Assembly: GCA_017461565.1 (NCBI GenBank)
Contig: JAFTXQ010000001.1
Location: 1-45,439 of the forward strand
Origin: Oscillospiraceae bacterium
GTDB lineage: Bacteria; Bacillota; Clostridia; Oscillospirales; Ruminococcaceae
DNA: 45,439 bases
Direction of reading: 5' to 3'
The notes under the pieces: generated by a model
Databases searched by the model: none
Told to the model about the DNA's origin: nothing
The model's input: the letters and a program-made list of their open reading frames with translations, nothing else
In this document: positions 17,372 through 22,790 of the stretch, one piece after another
Numbering within the stretch: position 1 is the stretch's first letter
Layout of the letters: every line of letters starts with the position of its first letter
Program-made: the position numbers and the translations under genes

Positions 17372-17770
17372 TCACTTGATCTCTGTAGGCTTATCCTTGT
17401 TCTTTTTCTTCTTGATCTCGGGAGCTACCTCTGCGGGCGCCTCGTGAACGGTGTTGTTCTTTGCGATAGCCTGCTTGAGTACACGGATCTTGGTTCTGTC
17501 GCTGCCTGTTTCGATGAGGACTGTATCCTCCTTAACAGAGAGCACACGTCCGATGATGCCGCCGTTTGTAACAACCTCGTCAGCTACCTGGATGTTGTTG
17601 AGCATATTCTCCATTTCCTTGCTGCGCTTCTTCTCGGGACGGATAAGGAAGAAGTAGAAGAAAAGCACCATAAGTCCGAGGGGGATGATCATACCCAGTA
17701 AGCTTGCCCAGGATGCCTCGGCGCCTGCTCCGCTTGCAGATGCAAATGTCAGTAATTCAGAAAAGTTCAT
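17372..17770 (-). CDS. yajC: Preprotein translocase subunit YajC
   Basis: A 132-residue single-span membrane protein associated with SecDF-type translocation. The transmembrane helix lies at residues 25-44 (LLGMIIPLGLMVLFFYFFLI), followed directly by RPEKKRSKEMENML, the hallmark of the family. The cytosolic SH3-like part reads VADEVVTNGGIIGRVLSVKEDTVLIE (split motif: VTNGGIIGRV). The Lys/Glu-rich tail is longer than in short YajC forms. GGAGG precedes the ATG. It has its own promoter downstream of the DUF4015-like gene and its own terminator. secD/secF are not in the window. Confidence 0.93.
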   Translation of the reverse strand: MNFSELLTFASASGAGAEASWASLLGMIIPLGLMVLFFYFFLIRPEKKRSKEMENMLNNIQVADEVVTNGGIIGRVLSVKEDTVLIETGSDRTKIRVLKQAIAKNNTVHEAPAEVAPEIKKKKNKDKPTEIK

Positions 17771-17888: not shown

Positions 17889-19073
17889 TTATTCAGAAAA
17901 AACGCTGATGCCTGCCTCACGGAAAGCAGATACTATATCATCGTACTCAGCCGCATTGTATCCGCTCTTACCTATAAGCACGCTGTAACCCTGACCGCTG
18001 TACAGACCATTCATCTTGCTTGTAAATGCATTTGCGCCTGCCTGACCGGCGATACTTTCTGCATCCAGCGTGATAAGAAGCTCCACTGTTTTCAGCTTGT
18101 TCTTATCTCCGACAGCTTCAGCGGGTGTTGCGTTTCTGTCCGCAGCGTCCATATCCGCCGCACTCATCTCAAGAAGTACTTCTGCGCCGCCGTTATTTGC
18201 AGCGGTGCTGCACGCTGTAATAACGTTCCATAGCGCTTCGAGACGTTTTTCGCTGTTCTTTATCGGCAGATGAGAAAGATATTTTTCATCCGCTTCCCTG
18301 AATGGTGGGAATTTCATGTCAGCGAGTATTACCTTTTCAAAGCCTGCGGCTGCGAGCTCTGCGGTGATTTCGGCCATAAACTCTGCCGTTTTCGGCTCGA
18401 AGGGAGATACCCATGGCCTTCCGCCATCGTCCGGCGCTGCGTCAAGCCATCCCCAGTCATCGCTGGTAGTGAACCTTATATCCGAAACCTCTGCCGTGGA
18501 TGTGTGATCCTTAAGTGTGCTTATGCGTGCCTGCGGTGTCAGACCTGCAGCCGTTATGGTATCGCATATCTGCTTCGCTGTAAGAGTGCCTGTCACAGCG
18601 TCGCTGTCCTTGATATCCTCTATCTCGGACTTGTAAAGGAACTTGCCTGTGTCATCCTTAAGAGTGATGACAACAGTAGTATACCCCTGAGCTTTTGCAG
18701 TGCTGATAACATGGTCAAGTCGTGTCTGATTCAACGCTGAACCATCGGGAAGCATAAATGCGCCGTTATCAGTTATTATCGGCTCTTCGGTCTCGACAGT
18801 CTCAGCTACATCCGTTGAAGCAGGAGCTGATGTATCTGCCGTTTCAGAAGTCTCGACAGGAGGAGTCCATCCGGAGCTTGACGTATCAGGCGTTTTGTTG
18901 CCACTGAAATAGTCGATCAGCGGTTTTCCAAGCCCAAAGCCAACAACGCCAAGCAGCGCAGCTATTACTATTGTCAGTATTATCGCAAGCGCCTGTCTGC
19001 TCTTGCTTTTCTTTTTGTTTTTATTATAGAAATTGTATTTGTGACGCTTTATCTTTATGTTTTTACGCTTCAT
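17889..19073 (-). CDS. Membrane-anchored DUF4015-like putative glycoside hydrolase
   Basis: A 394-residue protein with a very basic N-terminus (MKRKNIKIKRHKYNFYNKNK), one transmembrane helix (about 27-50), a Thr/Ser/Glu-rich linker (about 55-105) and an extracytoplasmic domain. The domain shows the order expected of DUF4015, a TIM-barrel family related to glycoside hydrolases: VVITLKDDTGKF, an ARISTLKD strand, WVSPFEPKTAEFMAEIT and AAGFEKVILADMKFPP. Substrate and activity are unknown. AGGGG precedes the ATG. It lies 61 bases after the RnfA-like gene on the same strand, so it may be the last gene of that unit. Confidence 0.7.
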   Translation of the reverse strand: MKRKNIKIKRHKYNFYNKNKKKSKSRQALAIILTIVIAALLGVVGFGLGKPLIDYFSGNKTPDTSSSGWTPPVETSETADTSAPASTDVAETVETEEPIITDNGAFMLPDGSALNQTRLDHVISTAKAQGYTTVVITLKDDTGKFLYKSEIEDIKDSDAVTGTLTAKQICDTITAAGLTPQARISTLKDHTSTAEVSDIRFTTSDDWGWLDAAPDDGGRPWVSPFEPKTAEFMAEITAELAAAGFEKVILADMKFPPFREADEKYLSHLPIKNSEKRLEALWNVITACSTAANNGGAEVLLEMSAADMDAADRNATPAEAVGDKNKLKTVELLITLDAESIAGQAGANAFTSKMNGLYSGQGYSVLIGKSGYNAAEYDDIVSAFREAGISVFSE

Positions 19074-19134: not shown

Positions 19135-19728
19135 TCAGAAATCCACGGTATATCCCACCAGTGCATAAAAAGCAAGTGAAATGACACCGATATAAACAAG
19201 CATTATCGGATATCCACGGAAAGCCTTGGGTATCTTGTCGGAATCCAGCTTTTCGTGCGCTATGTTCAGCAGCAGGCAGGCAAGGAAGAAGCCTATTCCG
19301 GTTCCCAGTCCATATCCTATATAAGACCAGATGTCGCTGCCGTAGTTTGAATTAAGAAAAAGTGCGCCGATAACGGTACAATTGAATATCGCAAGGTGAG
19401 CGTATTTTTTCACCCTTGCAAACACCTTGGGGAACAATCTCCAAAGGAAAAGCAGTGCCGAAATATACAATATGCTTATTATAGCAACGTAAATGACTGG
19501 CATCAGCAGCCAGCCGAATTCCAACGGCAGCAATGCGCTGTCAAGGAAATAGGTGATAGCGCTGGCTACGGTCGTCATAGCTGTTATTCCGATAGTGAAG
19601 CCTGATATATGAGACTCTTTTCGGGAGGCGTAGATCGTAACGTTTGAACCAAACGCACGCTCAAAAATAGCATTCTGGACGAATATCGATACCATTGCGG
19701 CAGATATTATCGCAGTGATTATCTCCAT
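19135..19728 (-). CDS. RnfA/NqrE-like membrane protein lacking one cluster cysteine
   Basis: A 197-residue, six-helix membrane protein of the RnfA/NqrE family. The family pattern is clear: IFVQNAIFERAFG aligns with the first-helix motif, HLAIFNCTVIGALF with the PLITVNCAIFG motif, and GYGLGTGIGFFLA with GFGSGVGWMLA. In true Rnf/Nqr each of NqrD/RnfE and NqrE/RnfA gives two Cys to a shared [2Fe-2S] cluster. Here the second Cys remains (C117), but the first position (GMC in NqrE) is N29 in GSN. With the partner's loss of both Cys, the cluster cannot form in the known way. It shares one base with the RnfE-like gene. Confidence 0.85.
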   Translation of the reverse strand: MEIITAIISAAMVSIFVQNAIFERAFGSNVTIYASRKESHISGFTIGITAMTTVASAITYFLDSALLPLEFGWLLMPVIYVAIISILYISALLFLWRLFPKVFARVKKYAHLAIFNCTVIGALFLNSNYGSDIWSYIGYGLGTGIGFFLACLLLNIAHEKLDSDKIPKAFRGYPIMLVYIGVISLAFYALVGYTVDF

Positions 19729-20369
19729 TATTCCTCAGCCTCCTTTCGGATCAGCTCAGGCTCGGCGGTCTCCCTTTCTCTGCGCCTGTTATAATAAGCA
19801 CGGCAGGCAGCCGCAAACAAGCCTACAAGGAAAAAGCCGAAAAACGGGGATTTTGCTGCAGGCATTATGGCGCTTCCGACATAAAATCCGAACAGGGTGC
19901 CGTAAGTAAGCAGCTCACGTATTATTCCCACCGCAAAAGCTACGATAGCGTAGCCTGCGATATACACCAGGGAATCTATCGCCATAGAAGAAAACGGAAT
20001 AAGGTAAAATCTGCTTTCCGTTTTGGCAAGGACCAGCGAGTTTACAACGATTATCTCAATATAAAGCATCACTGACATAGCAGTCTCGGGGAACAAAAGC
20101 TCCAGAAGCAGTGCCGTCGGAATAAACACAACAGACGCCACCAGAGCATATAGTATGATACGCACGGTATAAACAAGTCTGCGTGGTATAACACGGCATA
20201 TCAGTATCGTAAGGTATGATATCATAAAAAAGCTGAGAGACAGCACAGCTGCTCGCTCTGCTGTGGTAGCGGCAACTATGATAGGTGCTGTTACAAGTCC
20301 GCTTGTCAGAACGATATTCTGGCGGAAGAGCCCGTCAAAGCATATCGGGTAGGTCTTTTTACCGCTCAT
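19728..20369 (-). CDS. RnfE/NqrD-like membrane protein lacking both cluster cysteines
   Basis: A 213-residue, six-helix membrane protein. The late motif GIIRELLTYGTLFGFYV matches the family RELxGxGxLFG motif and fixes the assignment. The two positions that hold Cys in working RnfE/NqrD are changed. The first-helix GVCSALAVTT counterpart reads GLVTAPIIVAATT, and the TNCIVMGRAEAF counterpart reads VNSLVLAKTESRF, with Ser at residue 111. The tail is rich in Arg and Glu. The gene overlaps both neighbours (four bases with the RnfD-like gene), so the three are translated together. Confidence 0.82.
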   Translation of the reverse strand: MSGKKTYPICFDGLFRQNIVLTSGLVTAPIIVAATTAERAAVLSLSFFMISYLTILICRVIPRRLVYTVRIILYALVASVVFIPTALLLELLFPETAMSVMLYIEIIVVNSLVLAKTESRFYLIPFSSMAIDSLVYIAGYAIVAFAVGIIRELLTYGTLFGFYVGSAIMPAAKSPFFGFFLVGLFAAACRAYYNRRRERETAEPELIRKEAEE

Positions 20370-21472
20370 TCTTCAGTACCTCCCTTTTGCTTTTTCTTGC
20401 GTCTGTGCTTCTTTACCTTGCCGTCGATCGGGGGCGTATGATAGCGGTACTTTTCGGGAAGCTGTATCTCCTGTGTATCTGTAAGCTTGATGCTGCCGTG
20501 CTGAGCGGCATTTTTGTTCTGCTCAAACGAGCTTATGTATGTCTTTTTCCAGTACAGGAGATTATCTATTATCGTATCAAAGCCGCATGACAGCGCATTG
20601 GTTATCAGCAGCGCAAACAGGAAGCAGCCCTCTGTCTGTCCGAAATACCGGAACATCATCGTAGTATAGCCAAGCACAACGCCGTAGATCACTCTTGCTG
20701 CACGGCGCTTGGGAACGATGTACGGCTCAGCTGCAAGGAACACTGTACCAAACAGCAGATATCCGCTTGTAAGCTCATAGAACACAGAATCTATGGGAGC
20801 GACATCCACCCTCGGATAGAAAAACGCCAGCAAAGAGATTGTTCCGATACAAGATATAAATGTGCATATACTGGTGCTTCTGCGAATAAGCATACATATT
20901 CCGCATACAGCAATGACAAGTATGCTGACAGCACCGATCGCTCCCGGCACTCTGCCCATAGCAATGTCGATCATTGAATAGGGGGGGACATTACCCAGCT
21001 TCATCATGTTGTCAAGGTCTCTGATAAGTATATTGGTATGTCCGCCGAACGCAGGTATTATCTCTCCCACTTTTGGGAAGTATAACATTTCGTTGGGATA
21101 GCATATAATAAGAAATGCAGCAGCGATAGCAGGCGGTGAGAATATCACATTATCCTTGCCGCCGAACATGTGCTTTCCGATAACGATACAGATTATTGCG
21201 GAAAGCGCAGAATGTATATAGGGAATGCTCGCAGGCATAACAAGGGACACTGCAAGTCCCCAGAACACAACACTTGTATCCTTTATATCATACGGTATCC
21301 TGCGTATCTTGCAGCAAACAAGATCAGCCAGCATACATACGCCTACGCTTACTGCGCTGACAATGATAGGACGGATGCCGCCCAGAAACACAGCAGGGAT
21401 GAGCAGCGCCGCCATAAATACAAATCTTTCAAAATATACCTTGCACGGATCCCGTGCAATTATTGACTTCAT
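20366..21472 (-). CDS. RnfD/NqrB-like membrane protein without a flavinylation motif
   Basis: A 368-residue multi-helix protein of the RnfD/NqrB family. Supporting stretches are GKHMFGGKDNVIFSPPAIAA (family GGlGyNpFNPA), GRVPGAIGAVSILVIA (family G..PGsiGETSal) and FGTVFLAAEPYIVPKRRA (family FMATDPVTSP). Covalent FMN in RnfD/NqrB sits on the Thr of an S/TGAT motif just before the PGsiGE region. In this protein that stretch (residues about 143-171) has no such motif. A basic 40-residue C-terminal tail is extra. It is the first gene of the trio, with AAAGGA before the ATG. No rnfC, rnfG or rnfB is adjacent. Confidence 0.82.
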   Translation of the reverse strand: MKSIIARDPCKVYFERFVFMAALLIPAVFLGGIRPIIVSAVSVGVCMLADLVCCKIRRIPYDIKDTSVVFWGLAVSLVMPASIPYIHSALSAIICIVIGKHMFGGKDNVIFSPPAIAAAFLIICYPNEMLYFPKVGEIIPAFGGHTNILIRDLDNMMKLGNVPPYSMIDIAMGRVPGAIGAVSILVIAVCGICMLIRRSTSICTFISCIGTISLLAFFYPRVDVAPIDSVFYELTSGYLLFGTVFLAAEPYIVPKRRAARVIYGVVLGYTTMMFRYFGQTEGCFLFALLITNALSCGFDTIIDNLLYWKKTYISSFEQNKNAAQHGSIKLTDTQEIQLPEKYRYHTPPIDGKVKKHRRKKKQKGGTEE

Positions 21473-21529: not shown

Positions 21530-22057
21530 ATGAAAGCAGAGCTTCTGGGAGAAGCTACTTATAAAATAACACTTGACAAGACCGAATCTGCGTCCATGCC
21601 GACAGACGGCAGGAGCTGTGATATGCACCGCTTTATCTGCGGTATCATAGACCGACTTGCAGCAGAACAGGGACTGGTGTTCCCCGAGGGTAGACTGCTT
21701 GTGGAAGCTTTTCTGCGCTCCGACGGCAGCAGTGTATTCTTCGTGTCTGCACTGGAACAGGATGGTACCTGCACCGAGCAAAGATACTACTCCTGTGAGA
21801 TAACAGGAATAGAGCAGCTGAGATGTTTGTGTGAAGCTTTATCCCATACACAAACATACTGCCGCATATACTGCGGCAGCGACCCGCTTCAATACAGGTT
21901 TGTTTTTACCGACCCGCCGCCCGATACTGAACGTATATGCAACGAATACGGTGAATACTGCGAGATCTCTCCGCTTTTTGCGGCGCAGACTGAAGAATAT
22001 CTTACAGAGATAGCCTCAGGAAATGCACCCGAAAAGCTCAGCATGATCCTCGGATAA
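21530..22057 (+). CDS. MecA-like adaptor protein (tentative)
   Basis: A 175-residue acidic cytosolic protein. Its plan resembles MecA adaptors of ClpC: an N-terminal part with a helix then HRFICGIIDRLAAEQG..LLVEAFLRSDGSSVFFVS (pieces match 'lF..ild.a..e.gF...L.vEa....g.v.f.vtk'), and a C-terminal part with YRFVFTDPPPD and an EYLTEIASGNAPEKLSMI tail like the MecA end 'EyG..I...nAie.L'. The Cys-rich central region (six Cys between residues 84 and 145) is not typical. AAGGAG precedes the ATG. It is divergent from the RnfD-like gene, with only 57 bases between starts, and converges on rpe with a two-base gap and no terminator visible. Confidence 0.5.
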   Translation: MKAELLGEATYKITLDKTESASMPTDGRSCDMHRFICGIIDRLAAEQGLVFPEGRLLVEAFLRSDGSSVFFVSALEQDGTCTEQRYYSCEITGIEQLRCLCEALSHTQTYCRIYCGSDPLQYRFVFTDPPPDTERICNEYGEYCEISPLFAAQTEEYLTEIASGNAPEKLSMILG

Positions 22058-22059
22058 TA

Positions 22060-22713
22060 TCAGACAGGCTTTTTAAGCTCGTCGCAGACAGCCTTCATAT
22101 TTTCTGCCTTGAACAGTGCCGTACCTGCAACAAGTACATTTGCGCCTGCTTTTTTAACAAGCTCGGCAGTTTTTTCGTTGATTCCGCCATCCACCTGAAT
22201 GTCAAGCGTTTTATAGCCTGCGTTGTCGGCAGTCTTACGGAGCGACTTGATCTTCTCGATGGTTTCGGGAATGAACGCCTGGCCGCCGTAACCCGGCTCA
22301 ACAGTCATGACAAGCACCATATCGCACAGATGCAGATAGGGATACACCGCCTCAATAGGGGTATTTGGTTTTACTGCAAGCGCAGCTTTTTTATCATAAA
22401 GCTTTATATCTTTGAGTACTGCCGCAATATCACAGAAGCTCTCAACGTGGATAGTTATGAGATCTGCTCCCGCCTCGGCAAAAAAGGCGATCTGCTTTGT
22501 GGGATCCTCAACCATCAGATGCACGTCAAGGAACATATCGGTAGAGGCACGCACTGTTTTTAACACAGGACTTCCGTAGGTGATCTGATCGACAAAAACG
22601 CCGTCCATTACATCAAAATGTACCCAATCCACTCCTGATTTTTTGCAGCGGCTGATCTCAAGTGCGAGCTGTGCAAGATTGCTGGCAAGCAGGGATGCTG
22701 ATGTTTTTATCAT
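22060..22713 (-). CDS. rpe: Ribulose-phosphate 3-epimerase
   Basis: Cytosolic TIM-barrel enzyme (217 residues) interconverting ribulose 5-phosphate and xylulose 5-phosphate in the pentose phosphate pathway. Metal and acid-base residues are visible: VHFDVMDG (H32, D34), DVHLMVE (H65) and VDGGIN (catalytic Asp near 175). The phosphate-binding VEPGYGGQ loop and the final LVAGTALF strand are also present. ATG 22713 gives the family-like N-terminus MIKTSASLLASNL. A TTG four codons upstream has its AAGGA directly abutting and is less likely. Its neighbours are unrelated. Confidence 0.95.
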   Translation of the reverse strand: MIKTSASLLASNLAQLALEISRCKKSGVDWVHFDVMDGVFVDQITYGSPVLKTVRASTDMFLDVHLMVEDPTKQIAFFAEAGADLITIHVESFCDIAAVLKDIKLYDKKAALAVKPNTPIEAVYPYLHLCDMVLVMTVEPGYGGQAFIPETIEKIKSLRKTADNAGYKTLDIQVDGGINEKTAELVKKAGANVLVAGTALFKAENMKAVCDELKKPV

Positions 22714-22790
22714 AAAAAATTCCAATCCTTCTGACTGATTTTTTCAGGTCGTCTTACATTATAAGAGCCGAAAACAACCCATATATTAAT

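Follow-up and report, generated by a model that had tools for sequence, protein, structure and literature searches.

An Rnf-like D-E-A membrane trio of Oscillospiraceae without the electron path of Rnf

The rnfCDGEAB genes encode the Rnf complex, a ferredoxin:NAD+ oxidoreductase and ion pump, whose D, E and A subunits correspond to NqrB/D/E, the membrane core of Na+-NQR. Here we describe a locus in a 45,439-nt stretch of DNA from the Oscillospiraceae bacterium GCA_017461565.1 (contig JAFTXQ010000001.1, positions 1-45,439; this whole stretch is called the window), in which three genes for RnfD-, RnfE- and RnfA-like proteins (D, E and A; together the trio) stand in the Rnf gene order with C, G and B removed. 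The trio consists of the same D, E and A homologues as Rnf, but it lacks the [2Fe-2S] ligand set, the FMN-bearing Thr, and the G and B subunits, and C is absent as well in the lineage of the window. Sequence comparisons firmly indicate that, in the window's genus, the trio derives from the membrane core of Rnf, is co-inherited and under selection, and has no Rnf electron path.

Na+-NQR has this membrane core in common with the trio, but neither the covalent FMN site of NqrB nor the [2Fe-2S] cysteines of NqrD/E are present in the latter. For Nqr, an origin by duplication of an rnf operon has been proposed, in which rnfB was lost and RnfC, stripped of its cofactors, became NqrA (PMC4014512). Na+-NQR thus retains cofactors in its membrane part but not in its RnfC relative. 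In the clade of the trio it is the reverse, and the RnfC-like protein, where present, carries eight cysteines; by analogy, the origin of the trio would be the mirror image of that proposed for Na+-NQR. A D-like subunit without the flavinylation Thr is also known from two-subunit NQR/RNF-like systems, in which the RnfD/NqrB-like subunit bears a PF00175 NAD domain at its C-terminus and is paired with a flavinylated RnfG-like protein (PMC8238504, PMC11334425). These systems retain other electron carriers, are thought to move electrons, and have no described E or A. Unlike them, D of the window matches PF03116 only, and the FMN-binding domain PF04205 was absent from all seven genomes that carry the trio alone. 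Searches of open-licence PMC full text turned up no account of a D-E-A module devoid of cofactors, and the sequence-only reading of this DNA, which had put forward a redox-dead derivative, likewise knew of none.

Cofactor sites and descent of the trio

The three genes overlap (D/E by 4 bases, E/A by 1 base), and their coordinates (19135..21472), strand and Pfam families agree with what had been read from the sequence alone (Table 1). The D, E and A proteins of the window all score far below the NCBIfam cut-offs for rnfD, rnfE and rnfA. Their profiles match solved structures over most of the length: the RnfD-like profile RnfD/NqrB chains (7zc6_D, 1.9e-55), the RnfE-like profile RnfE/NqrD chains (7zc6_E, 1.4e-28), and the RnfA-like profile RnfA/NqrE chains (9eri_A, 2.3e-32). 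The AlphaFold2 model of D (pLDDT 81.5, pTM 0.76) is confident save for its C-terminal tail. This tail (residues ~316-351, partly of low confidence in the model) is conserved in the genus as FExNKxxxQxGxIKLTDTQEIxLPEKYRYNTPPIDG and looks like a docking or modification site.

At the [2Fe-2S] ligand columns, A of the window has lost the first Cys (N29) and kept the second (C117), and E has lost both, as the sequence-only reading had it; that reading was right about S111 of E, but placed the first site in the V26/T27 region, where the alignment gives A28. The same losses recur in the degenerate loci of our survey, in which E has neither Cys in 40/40 cases and A lacks the first in 39/39 (locus L075, described below, is included in these counts). 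A scan of named records yielded 68 loci, of which 28 coincide in their DNA with loci of the survey, leaving 40 new ones; in these, E is without a Cys at either ligand column (39/39) and A without the first (38/38), while the second Cys of A is retained in 27/38. In the same alignment, both cysteines of E and both of A are present in 38/39 other Rnf loci of the survey, and a mere shift of the cysteines, which the sequence-only reading had named as contrary to its proposal, is rejected. A Cys does occur within 6 residues of site 1 in 22/67 named E proteins; none is at the ligand column, and none is near site 2. The canonical set used for residue mapping excludes loci L082, L085 and L096. In L082 (G078 C9; cluster C, D, G, E, A), E retains the first Cys only and A the second only, possibly as a result of partial or independent cofactor loss.

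The column of the FMN-bearing Thr is occupied by T in 38/39 canonical D proteins and by S in 1/39. D of the window has L153 there (Asp in another alignment), and no residue is fixed at this column in the clade. The [S/T]xAT flavinylation site of RnfD is not found in the window's D, which bears out the reported lack of an S/TGAT motif. A shifted Thr was considered and rejected: the alignment gives Thr at the flavin column in 4/21 genus and 5/68 named rows, and the D..[STA].[AP]T motif occurs in 0/68. The flavinylation patterns are not fully sensitive, since the stricter form recovers just 5/9 canonical controls. The riboflavin ligands of RnfD, which in A. woodii are N123 and D249 (PMC11889175), are both replaced in the window's D, by S112 and E249, respectively.

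A careful tree of D groups 33 degenerate rows in a single clade (99/93), separate from true Rnf. Quick trees likewise unite the degenerate E and the degenerate A proteins in a clade of their own (SH-aLRT 88 for both), although these trees include several long branches. A clade of Cys-less, TGAT-less forms with a D-E-A-DUF4015 gene order had been anticipated; it exists, and its order is largely fixed. The intact arrangement RPE-D-E-A-DUF4015-YajC, where RPE stands for ribulose-phosphate 3-epimerase, is found in 57/68 named loci and 34/40 of the new ones, and the remaining named loci show partial gene order, several of them on short contigs. Among the surveyed degenerate loci, RPE is present in 39/39 and DUF4015 in 35/39; DUF4015 was not found beside L065, L067, L077 and L080 (4/39), the contig of the last ending after E. 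L075 (G066 C33, family f7) lies outside the clade and represents a second, separate degeneration, with the order C-D-E-A-DUF4015, no G found and the Cys of E gone; its E has 505 aa and a long low-complexity N-terminal extension. The gate-residue, RnfC-versus-riboflavin and Cys/His counts given below leave L075 out.

A close D (53-80% identity) occurs in 41/42 same-genus genomes, in one of which (G003) it is split across two contigs; G002 is the sole exception. The D-E-A cluster was found in 13/18 other family genomes (one per genus, G043-G060), and in another, G051, a degenerate-scoring E/A pair was present and no D was found. Outside the family, the degenerate cluster was seen in f5, f15, f23 and f24. 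By their titles, the named records belong to Oscillospiraceae, Ruminococcaceae, Ruminiclostridium and Clostridia that are uncultured or assembled from metagenomes, plus one Eubacterium and one Ruminococcus; several titles mention deer, goat or rumen and, by our own reading, others point to rabbit or termite. Of the 30 best loci from a profile search across 196 genomes of the class, 27 have the flavin Thr and both riboflavin ligands, and the 3 that have lost the Thr, one of them the window, all belong to this taxonomic order.

In seven same-genus pairs, pairwise omega is 0.026-0.140 for the trio genes and 0.098-0.189 for DUF4015; dS approaches saturation in the pairs that are furthest apart. 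Because omega of the trio is low (0.03-0.14) and the loss is common to the whole clade, the loss of cofactors goes beyond chance. A decaying remnant of a duplicated rnf operon would also display a graded loss of subunits and cofactor residues. However, the open frames, the omega values, the presence in 41/42 same-genus genomes, the conserved order and the new fixed residues are at odds with decay, which we regard as scarcely credible, as selection and conservation refute it. What these sequence comparisons establish is a stable derivative from which the electron path of Rnf is missing.

Graded loss and genomes that carry the trio alone

An RnfC-like gene precedes D in eight divergent clade loci (L059, L060, L062, L064, L065, L070, L074 and L080). 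The RnfC-like proteins of these loci and of L075 retain all eight cysteines of the two 4Fe-4S motifs, and all nine (9/9) are missing the GGAGFPT-type loop, which we take to be the NADH/FMN site of RnfC. The RnfC-bearing clade loci have N123 in 8/8 and D249 in 7/8 cases; both riboflavin ligands are present in 3/31 C-less survey loci. In 37 named loci near the window, which are C-less, N123 occurs in none and the D249 column contains E in all. A rule that RnfC loss tracks riboflavin-ligand loss was dropped, because 30/31 C-less named loci of the Ruminiclostridium type retain both ligands (N123 31/31, D249 30/31, one gap). As the RnfC-bearing loci largely retain the riboflavin ligands, they may still have a short chain from riboflavin to RnfC at the cytosolic face. 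The trio of the window thus stands at the far end of a graded loss. The earlier term "redox-dead" is well supported for the window's genus but not for every clade member, as eight loci retain an 8-Cys RnfC-like protein and many members retain the riboflavin ligands. Another reduced form of Rnf is seen in L085 (G079 C18) and L096 (G076 C16), where RnfC-RnfD-like pairs have no E or A found beside them.

The RnfC and RnfG profiles gave zero matches in the window, and the RnfB-type PF04060 matches of its genome are on contigs C10 and C12, with none on C11, the contig of the window, in agreement with the claim that no rnfC, rnfG or rnfB is adjacent. The search for a full rnf operon elsewhere in the genome, which the sequence-only reading had proposed, found a separate rnfCDGEAB on C10. 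This operon would permit the trio to borrow RnfC, RnfG and RnfB and to work as an alternative Rnf. We consider such borrowing very unlikely: it conflicts with the existence of seven trio-only genomes and with the cofactor sites of the trio itself, for without the [2Fe-2S] ligand set and the FMN Thr the electron path of Rnf is nonexistent there.

A single D match was found in 8/42 same-genus genomes; G002 has true Rnf only, and seven genomes (G011, G023, G025, G030, G033, G038 and G040; 73-97% complete) have the trio only, with the degenerate PF02508 pair alone. Canonical E/A, PF13375 RnfC and PF04205 RnfG were not found in 7/7 of these genomes, and ApbE was not found in 5/7 (it is present in G023 and G033). 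The same searches recovered C, G and ApbE matches in control genomes carrying both sets (G000, G034, G042 and G010). The strongest trio-only cases are G038 (97%) and G040 (95%). A search for the RnfB-type FeS domain covered G011, G033, G038 and G040, and its matches are in frames of 562-666 residues compared to 273-293 for control RnfB, except for a weak match (29 bits) in a 266-residue frame of G011. With no RnfC, RnfG or canonical E/A found in seven relatives that carry the trio alone, and no ApbE in five of them, a redox pump is hardly a plausible role for the trio, and the earlier suggestion of a role that needs no Rnf electron path gains support.

Some gut bacteria related to Oscillospiraceae have, beside or instead of the normal Rnf pump, a conserved copy of the Rnf core that is devoid of the electron-carrying parts, which suggests that this core has been reused for a task needing no electron transfer. 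A combination of PF03116 and PF02508 matches does not equal an energy-conserving Rnf, and annotation could wrongly assign one to G038, G040 and similar genomes.

Gate residues, the DUF4015 protein and the possible role of the trio

Which part of Rnf/Nqr passes the ion is disputed between RnfA/E (PMC11889175) and RnfD/NqrB, and both views are set out in PMC12174285. Kumar et al. (PMC11889175) place Na+ movement of the A. woodii complex in RnfA/E, where RnfE R67 and E115 and RnfA E88 form a switching ion-pair network and RnfA T110/T111/N112 are near the cluster; autotrophic growth was absent in R67A and E115K mutants, strongly reduced in E115Q and wild-type-like in E115A. In the trio, RnfE R67, E115 and N107 are kept in 21/21 genus and 39/39 new named rows, and RnfA N112 in 21/21 and 37/38 (one gap), respectively, which leaves the half-helix Asn in place near the window. 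The residues retained in the window are N110, R70, E118 and R151 of E and N116 of A, and H111 and F115 of its A are typical of the clade. Divergent members have N112 in 16/17 and R148 in 18/18 cases.

The gene that usually follows the trio encodes a DUF4015 (PF13200) protein, which in the window scores 61.1 bits against a curated cut-off of 27. Its model (pLDDT 81.5 overall) comprises one N-terminal helix, membrane-spanning in look, a low-confidence linker and a confident domain. Its sole strong solved relative is 4S1A (profile, 3.4e-31), a putative glycosyl hydrolase, "putative" being the wording of the family's hydrolase label in Pfam. Most invariant residues of this family are retained: of 72 distinct DUF4015 copies linked to a trio, 67-71 have each of the conserved K, D, W, D, W, E and P (70-71/72 for K, the two W, E and P). 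However, the Asp of the FDYIRFP-type motif, which we infer to be catalytic, is D in just 4 of the 72 (A 30, T 11, S 9, V 6), compared to 4/6 copies located by complete rnf genes. This pattern fits a trio-linked DUF4015 protein that would bind its ligand rather than cleave it. DUF4015 genes are also found downstream of Cys-complete rnf genes in six loci (L088, L093, L094, L095, L097 and L101), so the link between DUF4015 and Rnf seems older than the cofactor loss.

We consider it an even call, though the likeliest of the readings, that D, E and A form a redox-independent, probably transporter-like membrane complex with the anchored DUF4015 ectodomain outside. A paralogous second rnf operon, located between RPE and DUF4015 in this taxonomic order, would have been stripped of electron carriers, namely RnfB, RnfG, the [2Fe-2S] Cys set and the FMN Thr, as well as RnfC in many lineages and the riboflavin ligands in the window's genus. 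D, E and A would have been retained as a co-inherited unit, presumably with the same assembly as their Rnf counterparts. Redox-independent movement of a small ion or solute could then take place in the E/A pair, whose inner helices are broken, and/or in D, whose fold resembles that of ammonium/urea transporters. The anchored DUF4015 protein would be the outer partner that binds or feeds the substrate, or else it would be what the complex serves. More tentatively, and somewhat short of an even chance, the RnfDEA core may be a redox-free transporter in which E/A switches and moves an ion or solute without an electron carrier, coupled to the external DUF4015 binding domain. If true, the trio would serve as a natural experiment for identifying the ion-carrying part of Rnf/Nqr. 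A natural core that is free of carriers, and in which some proposed gate residues are kept and others replaced, makes ion movement testable apart from electron transfer and may help to reveal how the normal Rnf pump moves ions.

Several observations weigh against a redox-independent transporter. RnfA E88 is lost (L or M in 21/21 genus rows, L in 38/38 new named ones), T111 is replaced by F (21/21 and 35/38), T73 is replaced by P (21/21 and 38/38), and in divergent members R67 is found in 12/18 and E115 in 9/18. As T111, E88 and T73 are replaced, the trio would not simply be the same Na+ route left running, and because the A. woodii E115A mutant grew like the wild type, retention of E115 counts for little. 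With R67, E115, N107 and N112 kept and E88, T111 and T73 lost, the charged gate is apparently retained near the window in a pocket rebuilt with new fixed residues. The genomes with the trio alone are incomplete drafts (73-97%), which calls for caution because rnf occupies a single locus. Finally, the newly conserved Cys/His residues of the clade may constitute a new cofactor site, or else they may serve packing.

These new residues are H101, C124, C193 and mostly C54 in D, C58 in E and H111 in A, and they could, together with C117 of A, bind a different cofactor in a trio that is still a redox device. H101, C124 and C193 are near-fixed in the two named groups (37/37 and 31/31, 37/37 and 31/31, and 36/37 and 31/31, respectively) versus 0-3% in true RnfD, in percentages that include named loci re-finding survey DNA; A H111 is present in 61/65 named loci, compared to Pro in 38/38 canonical ones, and the Ruminiclostridium-type group keeps its riboflavin ligands. 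On the other hand, divergent clade members do not all have these residues (C124 10/18, C193 1/18), there is no G or B gene, the C-less members are without a known electron partner, and ApbE was not found in five of the trio-only genomes. Furthermore, C124 may be a packing residue, as true RnfD has S/A/G at this column in 37/39. We therefore regard a new cofactor as unlikely.

The main, though somewhat doubtful, alternative to the transporter is that the trio transports nothing and instead serves, as a scaffold or sensor in the membrane, to anchor or position the ectodomain of the DUF4015 protein and perhaps enzymes of the cell envelope. This would be in line with the usual adjacency of the trio and the anchored DUF4015 gene, with residues of the DUF4015 protein that are compatible with binding and not hydrolysis, and with the loss of RnfA T111 and E88. 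However, RnfE R67, E115 and R148 are fixed near the window, which is seemingly more than a scaffold needs. In addition, complete rnf genes already have DUF4015 downstream, and a few trios have none found next to them.

Genes of the locus

The trio and the genes around it are listed in Table 1.

Table 1. Features of the locus in the window, with Pfam matches.
Feature	Position	Strand	Evidence and remarks
RnfD/NqrB-like membrane protein	20366..21472	-	PF03116 2e-49; without FMN-Thr motif
RnfE/NqrD-like protein	19728..20369	-	PF02508 7.6e-22; A28 and S111 at both [2Fe-2S] Cys columns
RnfA/NqrE-like protein	19135..19728	-	PF02508 9.7e-23; N29 at first Cys, C117 at second
DUF4015 protein, one N-terminal hydrophobic helix; usual next gene of the trio	17889..19073	-	PF13200 1.3e-16
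YajC, conserved downstream neighbour in close relatives	17372..17770	-	PF02699 1.6e-27
Ribulose-phosphate 3-epimerase (RPE), conserved upstream neighbour; location marker, no claimed machine part	22060..22725	-	PF00834 1.6e-65

Between RPE and D, a 175-aa open reading frame without a significant Pfam match occupies the opposite strand (21530-22057, +). Its clear homologues are limited to the closest relatives (L038-L040), and weak matches occur in L058, L063 and L064.

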